A DNA stretch of 64,000 nucleotides from a virus, in the IMG/VR virus record IMGVR_UViG_3300009151_000001, positions 60,636-124,635 of that record, one strand, 5' to 3'. Positions 30,423 through 55,928 of this stretch are shown here, in pieces; position 1 is the stretch's first letter; every line of letters begins with the position of its first letter. The notes beneath the pieces were generated by a model. The model saw nothing but the letters and a program-made list of their open reading frames with translations, was not told the origin of the DNA and did not search any database. Both the position numbers and the translations under genes were made by a program.

Positions 30423-30451
30423 AATTGTTTATTTTTAGTGATTAAATACAT

Positions 30452-30481
30452 AAAAAAAGCTCTAGATTTCTCTAGAGCTTT
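30452..30481 (-). terminator. Rho-independent terminator of the tmRNA/tRNA transcript
   Basis: Eleven-bp stem AAAGCTCTAGA / TCTAGAGCTTT around TTTC, followed by seven Ts on the minus strand, 47 nt past the predicted tmRNA 3' end. Confidence 0.88.
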
Positions 30482-30527
30482 GGTAACAAAACAAAATCTG
30501 TGTGGAGGTAACCAGATTTTGTGTGGA

Positions 30528-30974
30528 GGTGGAGGTGAGGGGATTTGAACCCCTGTGTTAAGAAGAACGCCATAATACCAACGTCTCACATGTTTAGCTA
30601 CTCTGTTTCTCAGAAGCAGGAGATTAATCTGTGTTTTCACTGATTAGTAAAGGGCTGTACTGATTTAGGGTACAACATCCACCATCCTGATTTTTTAGCG
30701 TTGTACAGATAAACAACGGTAGTACTTTTAAAAGGTGTGTACTACTACCTTGAGTTTGTGACTTACTGTTCCACCCAAGTCACCAGAGGAAGAGTTACGC
30801 TGCTACAGCAACACGAGCGTTAGCGAACGCCATGTTAATGATTTTTGCACCGATAGCTTGATGATCAACTGTGTTGTCATTTATTGTTTTGTGTAACGAT
30901 TAAAGAGAATTAACACCATATCTCTACATGTGATACTATCCATTACATCTCAGTCGAATGCCAGTAACACCCCC
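30528..30974 (-). ncRNA. ssrA: Phage-encoded tmRNA (transfer-messenger RNA)
   Basis: About 447 nt. The 5' end GGGGGTGTTACTGGCATTCG has the tmRNA signature (TGG-x-TTCGAC follows). Acceptor GGGGGTG pairs with the 3' CACCTCC; the T arm is AGGGG-TTCAAAT-CCCCT. Helix P2 is supported by 5' ATAGTATC + CACATGT pairing with 3' ACATGTG and GGTATTAT. An internal frame after ATTAAC reads GCG TTC GCT ... GTA GCA GCG TAA, giving tag AFANARVAVAA at about 30830-30795. Downstream hairpins (GGTAGTA / TACTACC and others) would be the pseudoknots. tmRNA rescues stalled ribosomes and tags proteins for proteolysis. Confidence 0.85.
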
Positions 30975-30987
30975 GATAAATAAAAAG

Positions 30988-31103
30988 CCGGGATCTAAGG
31001 AATCGAACCTTAATCTAAGCCTTTGGAAAGACCACGTTCTCTCATATTTATTTGATCATGTAAAACATACCAAGTAAAATGATACCAATTAAACTACACC
31101 CCG
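30988..31103 (-). tRNA. tRNA-like gene, 116 nt, anticodon not assignable
   Basis: Acceptor CGGGGTG / GATCCCG (one mismatch), D-loop AATTGGTA and T arm TAAGG-TTCGATT-CCTTA are tRNA-like. But about 40 extra nt, able to form a hairpin (TTGGTATGT / ACATGATCAA), lie between the D loop and a second stem GGTCT-TTCCAA-AGGCT with a 6-nt loop. No standard 5-bp/7-nt anticodon arm is found. Confidence 0.55.
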
Positions 31104-31112
31104 ATAAAAAAG

Positions 31113-31210
31113 TGGAAGGAGGAGGACTCAAACCTCCCAGTAATACTTGTAAAATCATATGATTTGCGGTCTATACATTTTACAGGATCTTACTGATCCA
31201 TATTCCCCCC
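31113..31210 (-). tRNA. tRNA-like gene, 98 nt, possible Cys (GCA)
   Basis: Acceptor GGGGGGA / TCCTTCC pairs fully and the T arm is GGAGG-TTTGAGT-CCTCC. The anticodon region holds CCGCAAA (GCA, Cys) at the tip of a long arm extended by TGTAAAAT / ATTTTACA. The D loop lacks the GG pair. Extended arm makes identity uncertain. Confidence 0.55.
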
Positions 31211-31299: not shown

Positions 31300-31372
31300 T
31301 ATCTCTAAGTTTTTACGTACGATATTACTTAAAGTATTACAACTACCTTCCGATAGTTCTTTAAATTTAATG

Positions 31373-31444
31373 TTTGGGAGACAGGACTCGAACCTGTGAC
31401 CTACCTTAATTAAAAGATCGCATCTACCCCTGAGCTACTCCCAA
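31373..31444 (-). tRNA. tRNA-like gene, 72 nt, 6-nt anticodon loop
   Basis: Acceptor TTGGGAG / CTCCCAA and T arm ACAGG-TTCGAGT-CCTGT are perfect, with variable loop AGGTC. The D arm carries one extra base and the anticodon arm folds best as ATCTT-TTAATT-AAGGT, a 6-nt loop. Anticodon could be read as TAA, AAT or TTA depending on register. First gene of this RNA transcript. Confidence 0.6.
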
Positions 31445-31791: not shown

Positions 31792-32832
31792 TTAAAAAGC
31801 AAACCCTTGGAAAGCTGAGTGATATGTTCTTGCTTTCTCAATAACATACTTTTTAGATATTTTTATATCTTTACCATCTTTATCAGTGTCCCAATCTTCT
31901 ACAATTATAGTGTCATCAGAAATAACTTCTTTAATTGTACCTAGATGTAAACCATCTACATAAAAATCATAATCCCTACCAGTCATACGTTTTTCAAACT
32001 TTTTTGGGTCTATTTTAACATTTTGACCAATTATTTCAGGTTTCTTACCAGGTTCTAAAACAGTAACATCAAACATATTTTCAATCTTCTTAACATTGAA
32101 TACATCTAAGAAGTTAATAGGAAGTTCATCATGAATATTAACTTCTGATACTATAGCTTTCACTATATCAACAGTTATTATTTCCAACTCAGCTATTGAC
32201 TTAATAGTGTCATTTCTATGTTCTTTGTTGATTAACATATCATCAACAATCTCTGTAATGTTTTCGATAGAAAGATCTTTGAAAGTCTTTAAATAACGAA
32301 TACGACCCGGGCGCTGTAACATATTACTGTTAATATACAGCTCATTAGTAGTAAGAATAAATACTTTCTTAAAACCATTATCCAATACACCATCCATTAC
32401 CGTTAATACGCTGTAATCTTTTTCTGGATACACTTTTTCATATTCATCAATCATTACAACAATATTCTGTTGTATACTATTGATAAAACTAGGAATACCT
32501 GGATAAGGTTGATGAATAATAATCACTGGAAGATTCAAATCATTACAGATTTGTTTTGATGTAACGGTTTTACCAGTACCTTTAATTCCCGTCATTAACA
32601 CACCAAGATTAGTTGACATATTGTCATACGTCTTAATTACACGATTTATAAAATTTGTTTCTATTCCATACTTTTTATACGGAAAATCAAATTTGTCTTG
32701 TATCTGTGTTAAATACAGTTCTCCTTGTGGAGTCATGTTTAACTTATATACTCCTGTAGGTAATATATTTTCTTGTTGACTCATTTCTCTCATGAAGAAA
32801 TCTCCTGAGCTTCTCATCCATTGATTGTTCAT
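31792..32832 (-). CDS. AAA+ ATPase (Bcs1/FtsH-like core)
   Basis: 346 aa. Walker A LMTGIKGTGKT, Walker B NIVVMIDEYEKV, sensor 1 VFILTTNELY, and the arginine-finger segment LQRPGRIRYLKTF are all present. The C-terminal 90 residues are a small mixed domain (IGQNVKIDPKKF). Such AAA ATPases occur in crAss-like and other Bacteroides phages; target unknown. Confidence 0.85.
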   Translation of the reverse strand: MNNQWMRSSGDFFMREMSQQENILPTGVYKLNMTPQGELYLTQIQDKFDFPYKKYGIETNFINRVIKTYDNMSTNLGVLMTGIKGTGKTVTSKQICNDLNLPVIIIHQPYPGIPSFINSIQQNIVVMIDEYEKVYPEKDYSVLTVMDGVLDNGFKKVFILTTNELYINSNMLQRPGRIRYLKTFKDLSIENITEIVDDMLINKEHRNDTIKSIAELEIITVDIVKAIVSEVNIHDELPINFLDVFNVKKIENMFDVTVLEPGKKPEIIGQNVKIDPKKFEKRMTGRDYDFYVDGLHLGTIKEVISDDTIIVEDWDTDKDGKDIKISKKYVIEKARTYHSAFQGFAF

Positions 32833-52467: not shown

Positions 52468-52668
52468 ATGAATGAGTTATATAATTGGTTATTCCACAAA
52501 GGACTTGATGGAAACTGGGCCGCCATCCCCAGAGATAAAGTGGCTGATTATTTTAATGATTATAATACTCCTGGTATTATACGGTCATCTCAACTTGAAA
52601 CAGTAACAGAATTAGCTGCCAAAGTGACATATGATCCTGATTATTTAAAAACAATAGAATGTTTATAG
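52468..52668 (+). CDS. Hypothetical protein, 66 aa
   Basis: MNELYNWLFHKGLDGNWAAI then PRDKVADYFNDYNTPGII. The pattern W-x-F-H-x-N-...-W-A-A-I-P-x-D is one I associate with small phage proteins near TerL. Overlaps TerL start by 10 bp. Confidence 0.55.
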   Translation: MNELYNWLFHKGLDGNWAAIPRDKVADYFNDYNTPGIIRSSQLETVTELAAKVTYDPDYLKTIECL

Positions 52669-55600
52669 AAATTCCTACATACCAAAACAAATCCTGGAGC
52701 TCTACTGTGTTTCATACACGGGAAGAGTTTCGGGATTTTCTTATTCCTTTATTTAAAGAACCTGGACAATACAAGTTTAATGATGTAACGTCTTCAATAT
52801 TTAATGAACAAGGACGTTTGTTTGAAAAATATGGATACTATTGTTTGGCTCCGTTAAAAACAAAAGACTTTATTAAATACTGGGATGATCAAAAAGCTAA
52901 ATGTAGAAATGGTATAATAGTGATAGATGGTGAAGATACATGGTATATCACTAGAGATTATTATATGTGGCTTAATTTTCTTCCTATATATGATAAAGAA
53001 GAAAAACGATTTGCTTTTGCTAAAATAAGAGATGCTCAATATCATATGGCTCTATATGAGATATTAGCGGAGCTTCATTATAAACACGCTGTTATTCTAA
53101 AGAAACGGCAGATAGCTAGTTCTTATTTTCATATGGCTAAGTTTATTAACCAGTGGTATTTTGAACAAGGTGCTGTATTAAAACTAGGAGCTAGTCTTAG
53201 AGATTATATTAATGAGAAAGGATCTTGGAAGTTTCTTAATGAATATAAAAACTTTTTAAACGAACATACCGCTTGGTATCGTCCAGCTGAACCAGATAAA
53301 GTGGGCGCGTGGCAACAACAGATTAAAGTGAGGATTAATGGACGTGATACTTATAAAGGATTGAAGGGTACAATAAATTTGTACTCTTTTGAAAAAGATC
53401 CTACAAATGGTGTCGGTGGTCCCGTTACTTATTTTTTTCATGAAGAAGCTGGTATTGCTCCTAAGATGAATGATACTTATGGGTTTATGAAACCCGCTCT
53501 TAAATCTGGTCATATAATCACTGGTCAGTTTATAGCTGCAGGATCTGTAGGTGATCTTGACCAATGTGGTCCATTAAAAGAATATATACTTAATCCAGAA
53601 GCTAATGGTTTTTACGGAGTAGAATCTAATCTAATAGACAAAGATGGAACCATTGGGATTATAGGATTGTTTATTCCGGAACAATGGAGTATGCCACCAT
53701 ATATAGATGAACATGGAAACTCTTTAGTAGAAGAAGCTTTAGAAGCTTTAGAAAAAGAATTTGAGAAAGCTAAAAGAGATTTGGAACCAGCTGCGTATCA
53801 ACTTACTGTTTCTCAACATCCGCGTACAATAGAAGAAGCTTTTGCTAGTAGAAAACTATCTGTGTTTCCTCCACATTTGATAGCTAAACAACAACAACGT
53901 ATATCTGAAAAGACTTATTCTGTAGAATATTTAGAACTATCTAGAGATTCAGAAGGAAAGATAGTAGATAAACAATCTAGAAAAACTCCTATTATGGAGT
54001 GGCCAGTTAGTAAAAATACAGTGGATAAAGAAGGAGTGATATGTATATATGAACGTCCTCATAAAGATCCATCTTTTGGAATGTATTACGCTTCTGTGGA
54101 TCCCGTGGCTGAAGGTAAAGCCGAATATATTAATAATATGTTATATACACCTACTGGTAAAAAAAGAATAGGTGATATAAAAATAGGAGATGCTGTTATG
54201 AATCCTGATGGAACATCTACACTAGTTACTGGTGTTTTTCCACAAGGACAAAAAGAATTGTATAGAGTATTTTTTAATGATGGATTTAGTATTTTAGTTT
54301 GTAAAGAACATTTATGGTCAGTATATGCAAGTGATAATGATAAAATTAATCCCCATGTATTATCAGTAGATCAATTATTAGATTTAGAAGGATCCGTTAA
54401 AAGTTTAGGAGTAGGAAAAAATAAAACTAAAATATACAATACTAAAACTTATTATAAAAAAGGTAATATATCTAAATGGAAAATACCCATTACTAATCCT
54501 TTAATATTTGATAAAAATGAAATACCATTAGATTCTTATTTTTTAGGATTACTATTAGGTGATGGAGGAATATCTACTAGAAGTATTCACTATACATCTG
54601 CTGATAAAGAATTAATTGATCATATAAAAACTGTACTACCATCAGATATATCTATTAAACAAACTGGTAAATATGATTATAGAATTTCAACATCTAAATC
54701 TCGTAATTCTATAATGGGTATTTTACGAAGTTTAAATTTACAAGGTACCAAATCACAAACTAAATTTATACCAGAGATCTATAAGTATTCATCTATAGAT
54801 AATCGACTTGCTTTATTACAAGGATTAATGGATACTGATGGTTATTGTGGAAATCATGGAGCTGAATATTATTCTATTTCTTTTAATTTAGCTAATGATG
54901 TTGTAGATTTAGTTCATAGTTTGGGTGGTATAGCTAGAATAAGAAAAAAAATTACAAATAAAAAAAAGAAAAATGGGGTAGGTTATATTTACATAGTTAG
55001 AGTAAGTCTTCCTAAAATGTTTAATCCATTTAGATTAAAAAGAAAATCAAATTTATATAAACCTTCAAATAAGTTTTCACGATATATTTCAGATATAAAA
55101 TTTGAAAAGATTGATGAAGCTATTTGTATTAGTGTAGAAAATCCTAATAATCTATATATTACTGAACATGGTATTGTAACACACAATACCACTACGTCAG
55201 ATTCTTTATGTTCTATATACGTTTATAAGAATCCGCGGATGTTAATAAAAGATGATGGATCAGGAAAGATTGAAAGCTCATATGAGCGTGATGGTATAGT
55301 AGCTTCATGGTGTGGAAGATTTGATGATCTTAATAAAACACATGAACGTTTAGAACTTCTTATAGAATGGTATAACGCGTGGACTGTTGTAGAAAATAAC
55401 GTAGCTTTATTTATACAATATATGATATCTAAAAAGAAACAAAGACATCTTGTTCCTAAAAGTATGATATTGTTTCTAAAAGATATAGGAGCTAACTCAA
55501 ATGTGTTTCAAGAATATGGTTGGAAGAATGTAGGTACATTATTTAAAGGAACTATATTATCGTATGCTATAGAGTTTTTAAAAGAAGAAATTGATACAGA

Positions 55601-55928
55601 AACATTAGCTGATGGAACTATAGTAAAAACTATATATGGAGTGGAGCGTATTCCAGATCCTATGCTTCTTAAAGAGATGCAAGGATACCAAGATGGAGTA
55701 AATGTCGACAGATTGGTTGCGTTTGCGGCTCTTATAGCTTTTGCTAAAGTACAGCAATCTAACAGAGGTATGGCTCGTGATATAGAATATACAAAAAGTA
55801 ATTTGGACAACTCTAAAAAATTCAGTAGATTTAATATGAGTAATAGTCCTTTTAGACACATGGGAAACACTCGTGGCGGAGGATCAATGAGTTCTCCAAG
55901 AAGAAGTGCTTTTAAAAATATTAGATAA
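52659..55928 (+). CDS. Terminase large subunit (TerL) with an in-frame intein
   Basis: 1,089 aa precursor; 733 aa after splicing. The ATPase half has a Walker A-like VILKKRQIASS (146-155) and Walker B TYFFHEEAG (257-265). The nuclease domain starts at YASVDPVAEGK with D481. The intein (residues 488-843) is inserted seven residues after this catalytic Asp; the extein resumes TTTSDSLCSIYVYKN. TerL docks on the portal (encoded 240 bp downstream), pumps DNA and cuts concatemers. Unspliced protein should be inactive, so splicing gates packaging. Confidence 0.93.
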   Translation: MFIEIPTYQNKSWSSTVFHTREEFRDFLIPLFKEPGQYKFNDVTSSIFNEQGRLFEKYGYYCLAPLKTKDFIKYWDDQKAKCRNGIIVIDGEDTWYITRDYYMWLNFLPIYDKEEKRFAFAKIRDAQYHMALYEILAELHYKHAVILKKRQIASSYFHMAKFINQWYFEQGAVLKLGASLRDYINEKGSWKFLNEYKNFLNEHTAWYRPAEPDKVGAWQQQIKVRINGRDTYKGLKGTINLYSFEKDPTNGVGGPVTYFFHEEAGIAPKMNDTYGFMKPALKSGHIITGQFIAAGSVGDLDQCGPLKEYILNPEANGFYGVESNLIDKDGTIGIIGLFIPEQWSMPPYIDEHGNSLVEEALEALEKEFEKAKRDLEPAAYQLTVSQHPRTIEEAFASRKLSVFPPHLIAKQQQRISEKTYSVEYLELSRDSEGKIVDKQSRKTPIMEWPVSKNTVDKEGVICIYERPHKDPSFGMYYASVDPVAEGKAEYINNMLYTPTGKKRIGDIKIGDAVMNPDGTSTLVTGVFPQGQKELYRVFFNDGFSILVCKEHLWSVYASDNDKINPHVLSVDQLLDLEGSVKSLGVGKNKTKIYNTKTYYKKGNISKWKIPITNPLIFDKNEIPLDSYFLGLLLGDGGISTRSIHYTSADKELIDHIKTVLPSDISIKQTGKYDYRISTSKSRNSIMGILRSLNLQGTKSQTKFIPEIYKYSSIDNRLALLQGLMDTDGYCGNHGAEYYSISFNLANDVVDLVHSLGGIARIRKKITNKKKKNGVGYIYIVRVSLPKMFNPFRLKRKSNLYKPSNKFSRYISDIKFEKIDEAICISVENPNNLYITEHGIVTHNTTTSDSLCSIYVYKNPRMLIKDDGSGKIESSYERDGIVASWCGRFDDLNKTHERLELLIEWYNAWTVVENNVALFIQYMISKKKQRHLVPKSMILFLKDIGANSNVFQEYGWKNVGTLFKGTILSYAIEFLKEEIDTETLADGTIVKTIYGVERIPDPMLLKEMQGYQDGVNVDRLVAFAALIAFAKVQQSNRGMARDIEYTKSNLDNSKKFSRFNMSNSPFRHMGNTRGGGSMSSPRRSAFKNIR
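54120..55187 (+). other. Class 3-type intein with LAGLIDADG endonuclease in TerL
   Basis: 356 aa. It begins AEYINNMLYTPTGKK: position 1 is Ala, not Cys/Ser. Block B has VCKEHLW (W553), block F has AICISVENP (C823), and the junction is GIVTHN followed by Thr844. Ala1 with the Trp-Cys-Thr set is the mark of class 3 inteins, which start splicing from the block F Cys. The endonuclease motifs are LGLLLGDGG (629-637) and LLQGLMDTDG (719-728), both with their Asp. Confidence 0.87.

Follow-up and report, generated by a model that had tools for sequence, protein, structure and literature searches.

The occurrence of a tmRNA gene with an unusual tag in a viral genome raises two questions: whether the gene is a working part of the phage or recently came from a host, and what its tag would do to the polypeptides that receive it. 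A reading of the sequence alone (the sequence-only reading) had picked out the gene in a stretch of 64,000 bases, here called the window, which comprises bases 60636-124635 of a 124,635-base (124.6 kb) IMG/VR virus record. We suggest that the locus is likely to be a functional, long-established phage tmRNA, which would depend on the SmpB of the host and would add a tag of 27 amino acids (aa).

A complete one-piece tmRNA

On the minus strand, ARAGORN calls a one-piece tmRNA at 30528-30974, and with Infernal/Rfam the whole of model RF00023 (positions 1-374) matches 30527-30974 on the same strand with 75.9 bits (E 1.1e-27; gathering score 47 bits). Both of the proposed checks, by covariance model and by ARAGORN, call a tmRNA and bear out the two halves that had been recognized by eye; the location also stood, and only the minus strand, left unstated before, had to be added. 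The features of the locus are:

30527-30974, minus strand: one-piece tmRNA (ssrA) gene, ~447 nt (ARAGORN and full-length RF00023 match)
30968-30974, minus strand: acceptor stem, 5' strand GGGGGTG, with G3 at 30972 (sequence; 7/7 pairs)
30926-30932, minus strand: inner P2 helix, 5' strand CACATGT (MFE fold; also in relatives)
30891-30925, minus strand: PK1-like pseudoknot (AGAGA/TCTCT, GTGT/ACAC) that precedes the tag (read from the sequence)
30795-30878, minus strand: tag frame GAC...GCG TAA encoding DNTVDHQAIGAKIINMAFANARVAVAA, 27 aa (resume context as in relatives; translation)
30587-30593, minus strand: inner P2 helix, 3' strand ACATGTG, partner of 30926-30932 (MFE fold; also in relatives)
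30538-30554, minus strand: T arm AGGGGTTCAAATCCCCT (RF00023 alignment, sequence)
30531-30537, minus strand: acceptor stem, 3' strand CACCTCC, U70 being at 30533; A73 and CC come next (sequence)
30491-30522: 10-bp hairpin between the tmRNA 3' end and the terminator
30456-30481, minus strand: intrinsic terminator, 11-bp stem and T-run, ~46 nt past the tmRNA 3' end (fold)

The acceptor strands pair along their full length and the T arm and P2 helix are present, as had been read from the sequence. The alanine identity pair G3-U70 and the discriminator A are both in place; the 3' end is encoded as ACCT, which leaves an incomplete CCA for the host to finish. The AGAGA/TCTCT helix of the pseudoknot is recovered in the MFE fold, and with 5/6 pairs the outer P2 helix is less complete than in most relatives. 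The MFE of the entire RNA is unexceptional (z -1.4), as expected for a pseudoknotted molecule, and the region 30445-30530 that holds the terminator folds at z -6.1. Just past the tmRNA 3' end, two 21-nt repeats with TGTGGAGGT (30489-30530) echo the acceptor end. In total, the molecule shares with bacterial tmRNAs (RF00023) the tRNA-like domain with G3-U70, P2, the pseudoknots, an internal tag ending in AA and the one-piece organization, and differs from them in its 27-aa tag, in being phage-borne and in lacking an adjacent smpB gene.

The virus and its possible host

Protein family matches identify the record as a crAss-like phage (Crassvirales), with a portal (phrog_6547, 1.3e-85), a major head protein (phrog_11589, 2e-30) and a terminase (phrog_6681, 4e-58) of crAss-like type; the description of the tmRNA as phage-encoded is thus upheld by the portal and terminase of a virus contig. 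The portal is 24-32% identical to those of the nearest named phages, Leptolyngbya phage Lbo-JY46 (32%), csAssE-Sib and Cellulophaga phi17:2, and 72-80% identical to those in many contigs of the viral collection. A Shine-Dalgarno-like site precedes 1 of 62 genes, and the bases upstream of genes are A-rich, a pattern also described for Bacteroidota (PMC6847099). The missing sites were rejected as a host indicator, because Lbo-JY46, whose reported host is a cyanobacterium, likewise has none (0/17) and their absence thus does not separate hosts. The Bacteroidota-type promoter motif TAnnTTTG is not enriched.

Giant ORFs of up to 2257 aa, typical of crAss-like phages, are read in the standard code at G000:C1:20000-59999 (L239, L240), and terL (52659-55928, plus strand) is interrupted by an in-frame insert that resembles an intein (LAGLIDADG_3, Hint). 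Genetic recoding was considered and rejected, since the standard code yields intact giant ORFs in the stretches read. The idea that the tmRNA serves many interrupted or frameshifted messages finds no support in the same intact ORFs or in the in-frame nature of the terL interruption.

The tag is longer than it first appeared

The tag had initially been read as AFANARVAVAA, which is merely the end of the frame. ARAGORN places the tag start at GAT 30866, four codons downstream of GAC 30878, giving the 23-aa tag DHQAIGAKIINMAFANARVAVAA (DHQ...). In relatives, the resume codon is preceded by AATAAAY (AATAAAY|GNN) or AATAACC. The window has AATAAAT|GAC ... GTAGCAGCG TAA, in which a tail of small hydrophobic residues precedes the stop, and given that AATAAAT matches the context in relatives, we infer by this comparison that GAC 30878 is the resume codon of the 27-aa frame. 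In the relative L126 the ARAGORN start likewise follows AGTT, and the tag can be extended in the same manner.

At ~27 aa the tag is nearly three times the usual length; the most frequent length is 10 aa according to the tmRNA database paper (PMC11915505), and 51 of the 110 tags in the bacterial set compared here have this length. The claim that the tag is unusual therefore understated the case, all the more as the tag is conserved in related phages. The statement that Bacteroidetes tags end in ALAA agrees roughly with three Bacteroidota-type tags, which are 10-12 aa long and end in LAA. An amphipathic helix was considered and rejected, the helical moment of any tag being no better than that of shuffled sequences.

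A family of long-tag tmRNAs in environmental crAss-like phages

Relatives were sought by a pattern scan of viral contigs, which is biased to the acceptor of the window tmRNA, followed by ARAGORN. The scan and ARAGORN together yielded tags of 20-31 aa at at least ~35 loci; many of the matches listed carry short host-like tags such as ANDDNYALAA and ANDESYALAA. Two long types recur: type A, with the consensus xKTQSERVAEGEAILASIFGEVAVAA (26-27 aa), is found repeatedly in crAss-like contigs, and type B has ELSxxTFEDAMAFVGADYAVAA. Most tags keep the end of small hydrophobic residues, and the extension is conserved between crAss-like groups as SERVAEGE.IL. Within type A, it is the window copy that has diverged furthest. 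The portal search led to one contig (L088, the contig of L053) whose tmRNA is full-length at 79.4 bits and encodes the tag GKTQSDRVAEGEAILASIFGEVAVAA. Of the 46 records tested for a crAss-like portal, eight of them short-tag controls, 18 have it; the crAss-like terminase family occurs in 24 of 40 records and in none of 14 control genomes. Several type-B contigs carry neither marker; these contigs may be fragments, or type B may not be confined to crAss-like phages.

Both genes were located by hand in 16 records that carry tmRNA and terL directly on a single contig. In all of these (16/16) the tmRNA lies 7-22 kb upstream of terL and is encoded on the other strand, the records being related to one another and not independent. 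Two further records fit if their contigs are circular. The locus is common to several crAss-like groups. In five close relatives no tmRNA was found within the ~40 kb that precede terL, so that it is dispensable; taken together with the shared placement, the gene is old but patchy. In related crAss-like contigs, Hatchet ribozyme matches lie upstream of terL (L225 9307-9439 and L227 8059-8197; 78 and 77 bits).

These data bear on whether ssrA was recently taken, whole or as a 3' fragment, from a host chromosome, as a captured gene or an attachment-site remnant. Integration at ssrA is common, and the short host-like tags among the listed scan matches would fit such an origin. However, the window gene is complete, its locus is shared between crAss-like groups, and a narrow pattern scan did not find the type-A tag in bacterial genome contigs. 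We disfavour this origin and consider it very improbable. Neither was the type-A tag found in named phages, nor the exact 3'-end DNA of the window tmRNA in other viruses; a comparison of the whole molecule with 50,697 phage records gave no match, and the tmRNAs of the relatives match such records over short stretches only, mostly at the 3' end.

Structure and tag are maintained in the family

G3-U70 is present in 30 of the 31 long-tag tmRNAs compared, and in some relatives acceptor pairs 4-7 have compensatory changes that affect both strands. Complete pairing of the outer P2 helix (6/6) is seen in 15 of 18 sequences scored, with very different letters and mostly at a constant distance from the T arm. 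Among 14 relatives, third positions of tag codons differ at 0.37 compared to 0.18 and 0.22 for positions 1 and 2 (permutation p 0.002), and pooled pS is 0.43 versus a pN of 0.27. Both the third-position excess and pS > pN support that the tag is translated in the family; between the window tag and its relatives synonymous differences are near saturation, and these rates therefore do not show selection on the window copy itself. The refuting outcome named by the sequence-only reading was the lack of both a covariance-model match and a conserved tag frame in related phages, and the results on both points favour a tmRNA. Combining the homologues, the shared placement, the compensatory helix changes and the third-position excess, we conclude that this is an old and probably functional phage gene.

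No SmpB gene was found in the record of the window or in 40 records with a model that finds SmpB in 10 control genomes; SmpB, AlaRS and the proteases must therefore come from the host. An AAA+ ATPase at 31792-32832 was rejected as a partner, being present in only 4 of 29 records, and a search for a phage ClpP gave none in G000 and one match in 29 records. The lack of a phage SmpB in these records would also suit a decoy, in which the RNA mainly competes for SmpB, AlaRS and ribosomes and so dampens host trans-translation, the tag being secondary. There is a precedent in phage DS6A, where hardly anything beyond the tRNA-like domain is present, and a DS6A-like molecule inhibits tmRNA (PMC4131195, PMC11915505), in E. 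coli according to PMC11915505. We regard such a role as improbable here, given that the complete mRNA domain, the resume context and the third-position excess argue that the tag is translated.

Relation to known phage tmRNAs

Phage tmRNAs are already known and are encoded by ~2.3% of 18,146 phage genomes (PMC9004378). Those of the mycobacteriophage Bxz1 group, Bacillus phage G, Melnitz, Streptomyces phage BillNye and Enterococcus phage iF6 are likewise phage-borne and have tag sequences that differ from that of the window; the tags of BillNye and S-CAM1 are 20-21 aa long. Within the Crassvirales, tmRNAs are annotated in RefSeq for the gut crAss-like Burzaovirus cr7_1 and cr124_1 (Suoliviridae), but these are circularly permuted and have 13-aa tags (DNVNNIVDYTNVA and GNVNNIVDYTNVA), unlike the one-piece, 27-aa-tag molecule of the window. 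In excerpts of the literature on crAss-like phages, tmRNA figures only as a feature of annotation tools or as a reference. The conserved family of extended tags in environmental crAss-like phages, as judged by sequence comparison, appears to be new, and we found none described.

A model for the phage tmRNA and its tag

In the model that we favour, transcription would end at the terminator at 30456-30481 and be followed by trimming, and the host would add CCA and alanine and supply SmpB. The phage tmRNA would then enter ribosomes that have stalled on non-stop messages of the phage or the host, translation would resume at GAC 30878, and the 27-aa tag would be added to the nascent chain, its AVAA end being readable by host proteases of the ClpXP type. 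The conserved extension of ~20 aa before AVAA could provide an additional or different recognition element, for a protease or an adaptor, compared to the short host tag. The structure of the RNA and the conservation of the tag frame are established here, and expression, charging, tagging and degradation are the predicted steps. A rescue function is the safe reading of the phage tmRNA; a redirected fate of the tagged chains is a possibility.

For the extension itself, several readings have to be weighed. The phage RNA could simply provide more trans-translation capacity, with ClpXP reading AVAA and the extension being a neutral spacer that reflects RNA structure or history. The retention of the small hydrophobic end in most tags fits this explanation, as do the long tags of bacteria such as the Omnitrophota MAGs (22-31 aa by ARAGORN), from which it follows that length alone need not imply a new function. 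Against it, the extension is the very part that is conserved between crAss-like groups, as SERVAEGE.IL, and most of the variation in its codons falls on third positions. We give a mere extra dose somewhat less than an even chance.

The extended tmRNA tag of Mycoplasma is reportedly recognised by Lon, the extension switching the protease, as described by Gur and Sauer in 2008 and by Ge and Karzai in 2009 (both cited in PMC11986505). This Lon-read tag of Mycoplasma and Mesoplasma resembles the phage tag in length only, and no sequence relation is claimed. By analogy, we tentatively propose that the phage extension offers a protease or adaptor a further or alternative site of recognition on the tagged chains. 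It is a little more doubtful that the extension, SERVAEGEAILASIFG in type A and ELSxxTFEDAMAFVG in type B, would be a phage-specific degron or adaptor signal that leads to a protease or partner different from that of the host tag; if so, crAss-like phages would reprogram the fate of stalled-ribosome products. Having a conserved extended tag that is not host-like makes it testable whether the tag, rather than rescue, matters to the phages that carry a tmRNA, and the tag peptides are candidates for new degradation signals.

Additional observations

The Omnitrophota MAG tmRNAs include L274, L253, L312, L319 and L273 as well as others, and many of their predicted tags end in N (ARAGORN); the tag of L273, ANNSYDVVAEAEAILAGAEAPALV, resembles the phage type-A tag. 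Three tRNA-like sequences lie beside the window tmRNA on the minus strand. That at 31372-31444 is a tRNA with a 6-nt anticodon loop and an anticodon that is not assignable (ARAGORN, Rfam), and that at 30986-31106 (121 nt) is tRNA-like, contains an AU-rich hairpin of ~40 nt as an insert and folds no better than shuffled sequences. The third, at 31112-31210, is a tRNA-Cys(GCA)-like gene that was missed by ARAGORN; it folds into a cloverleaf (z -2.1) with an anticodon stem of 12-14 bp instead of 5 and with C at position 33.
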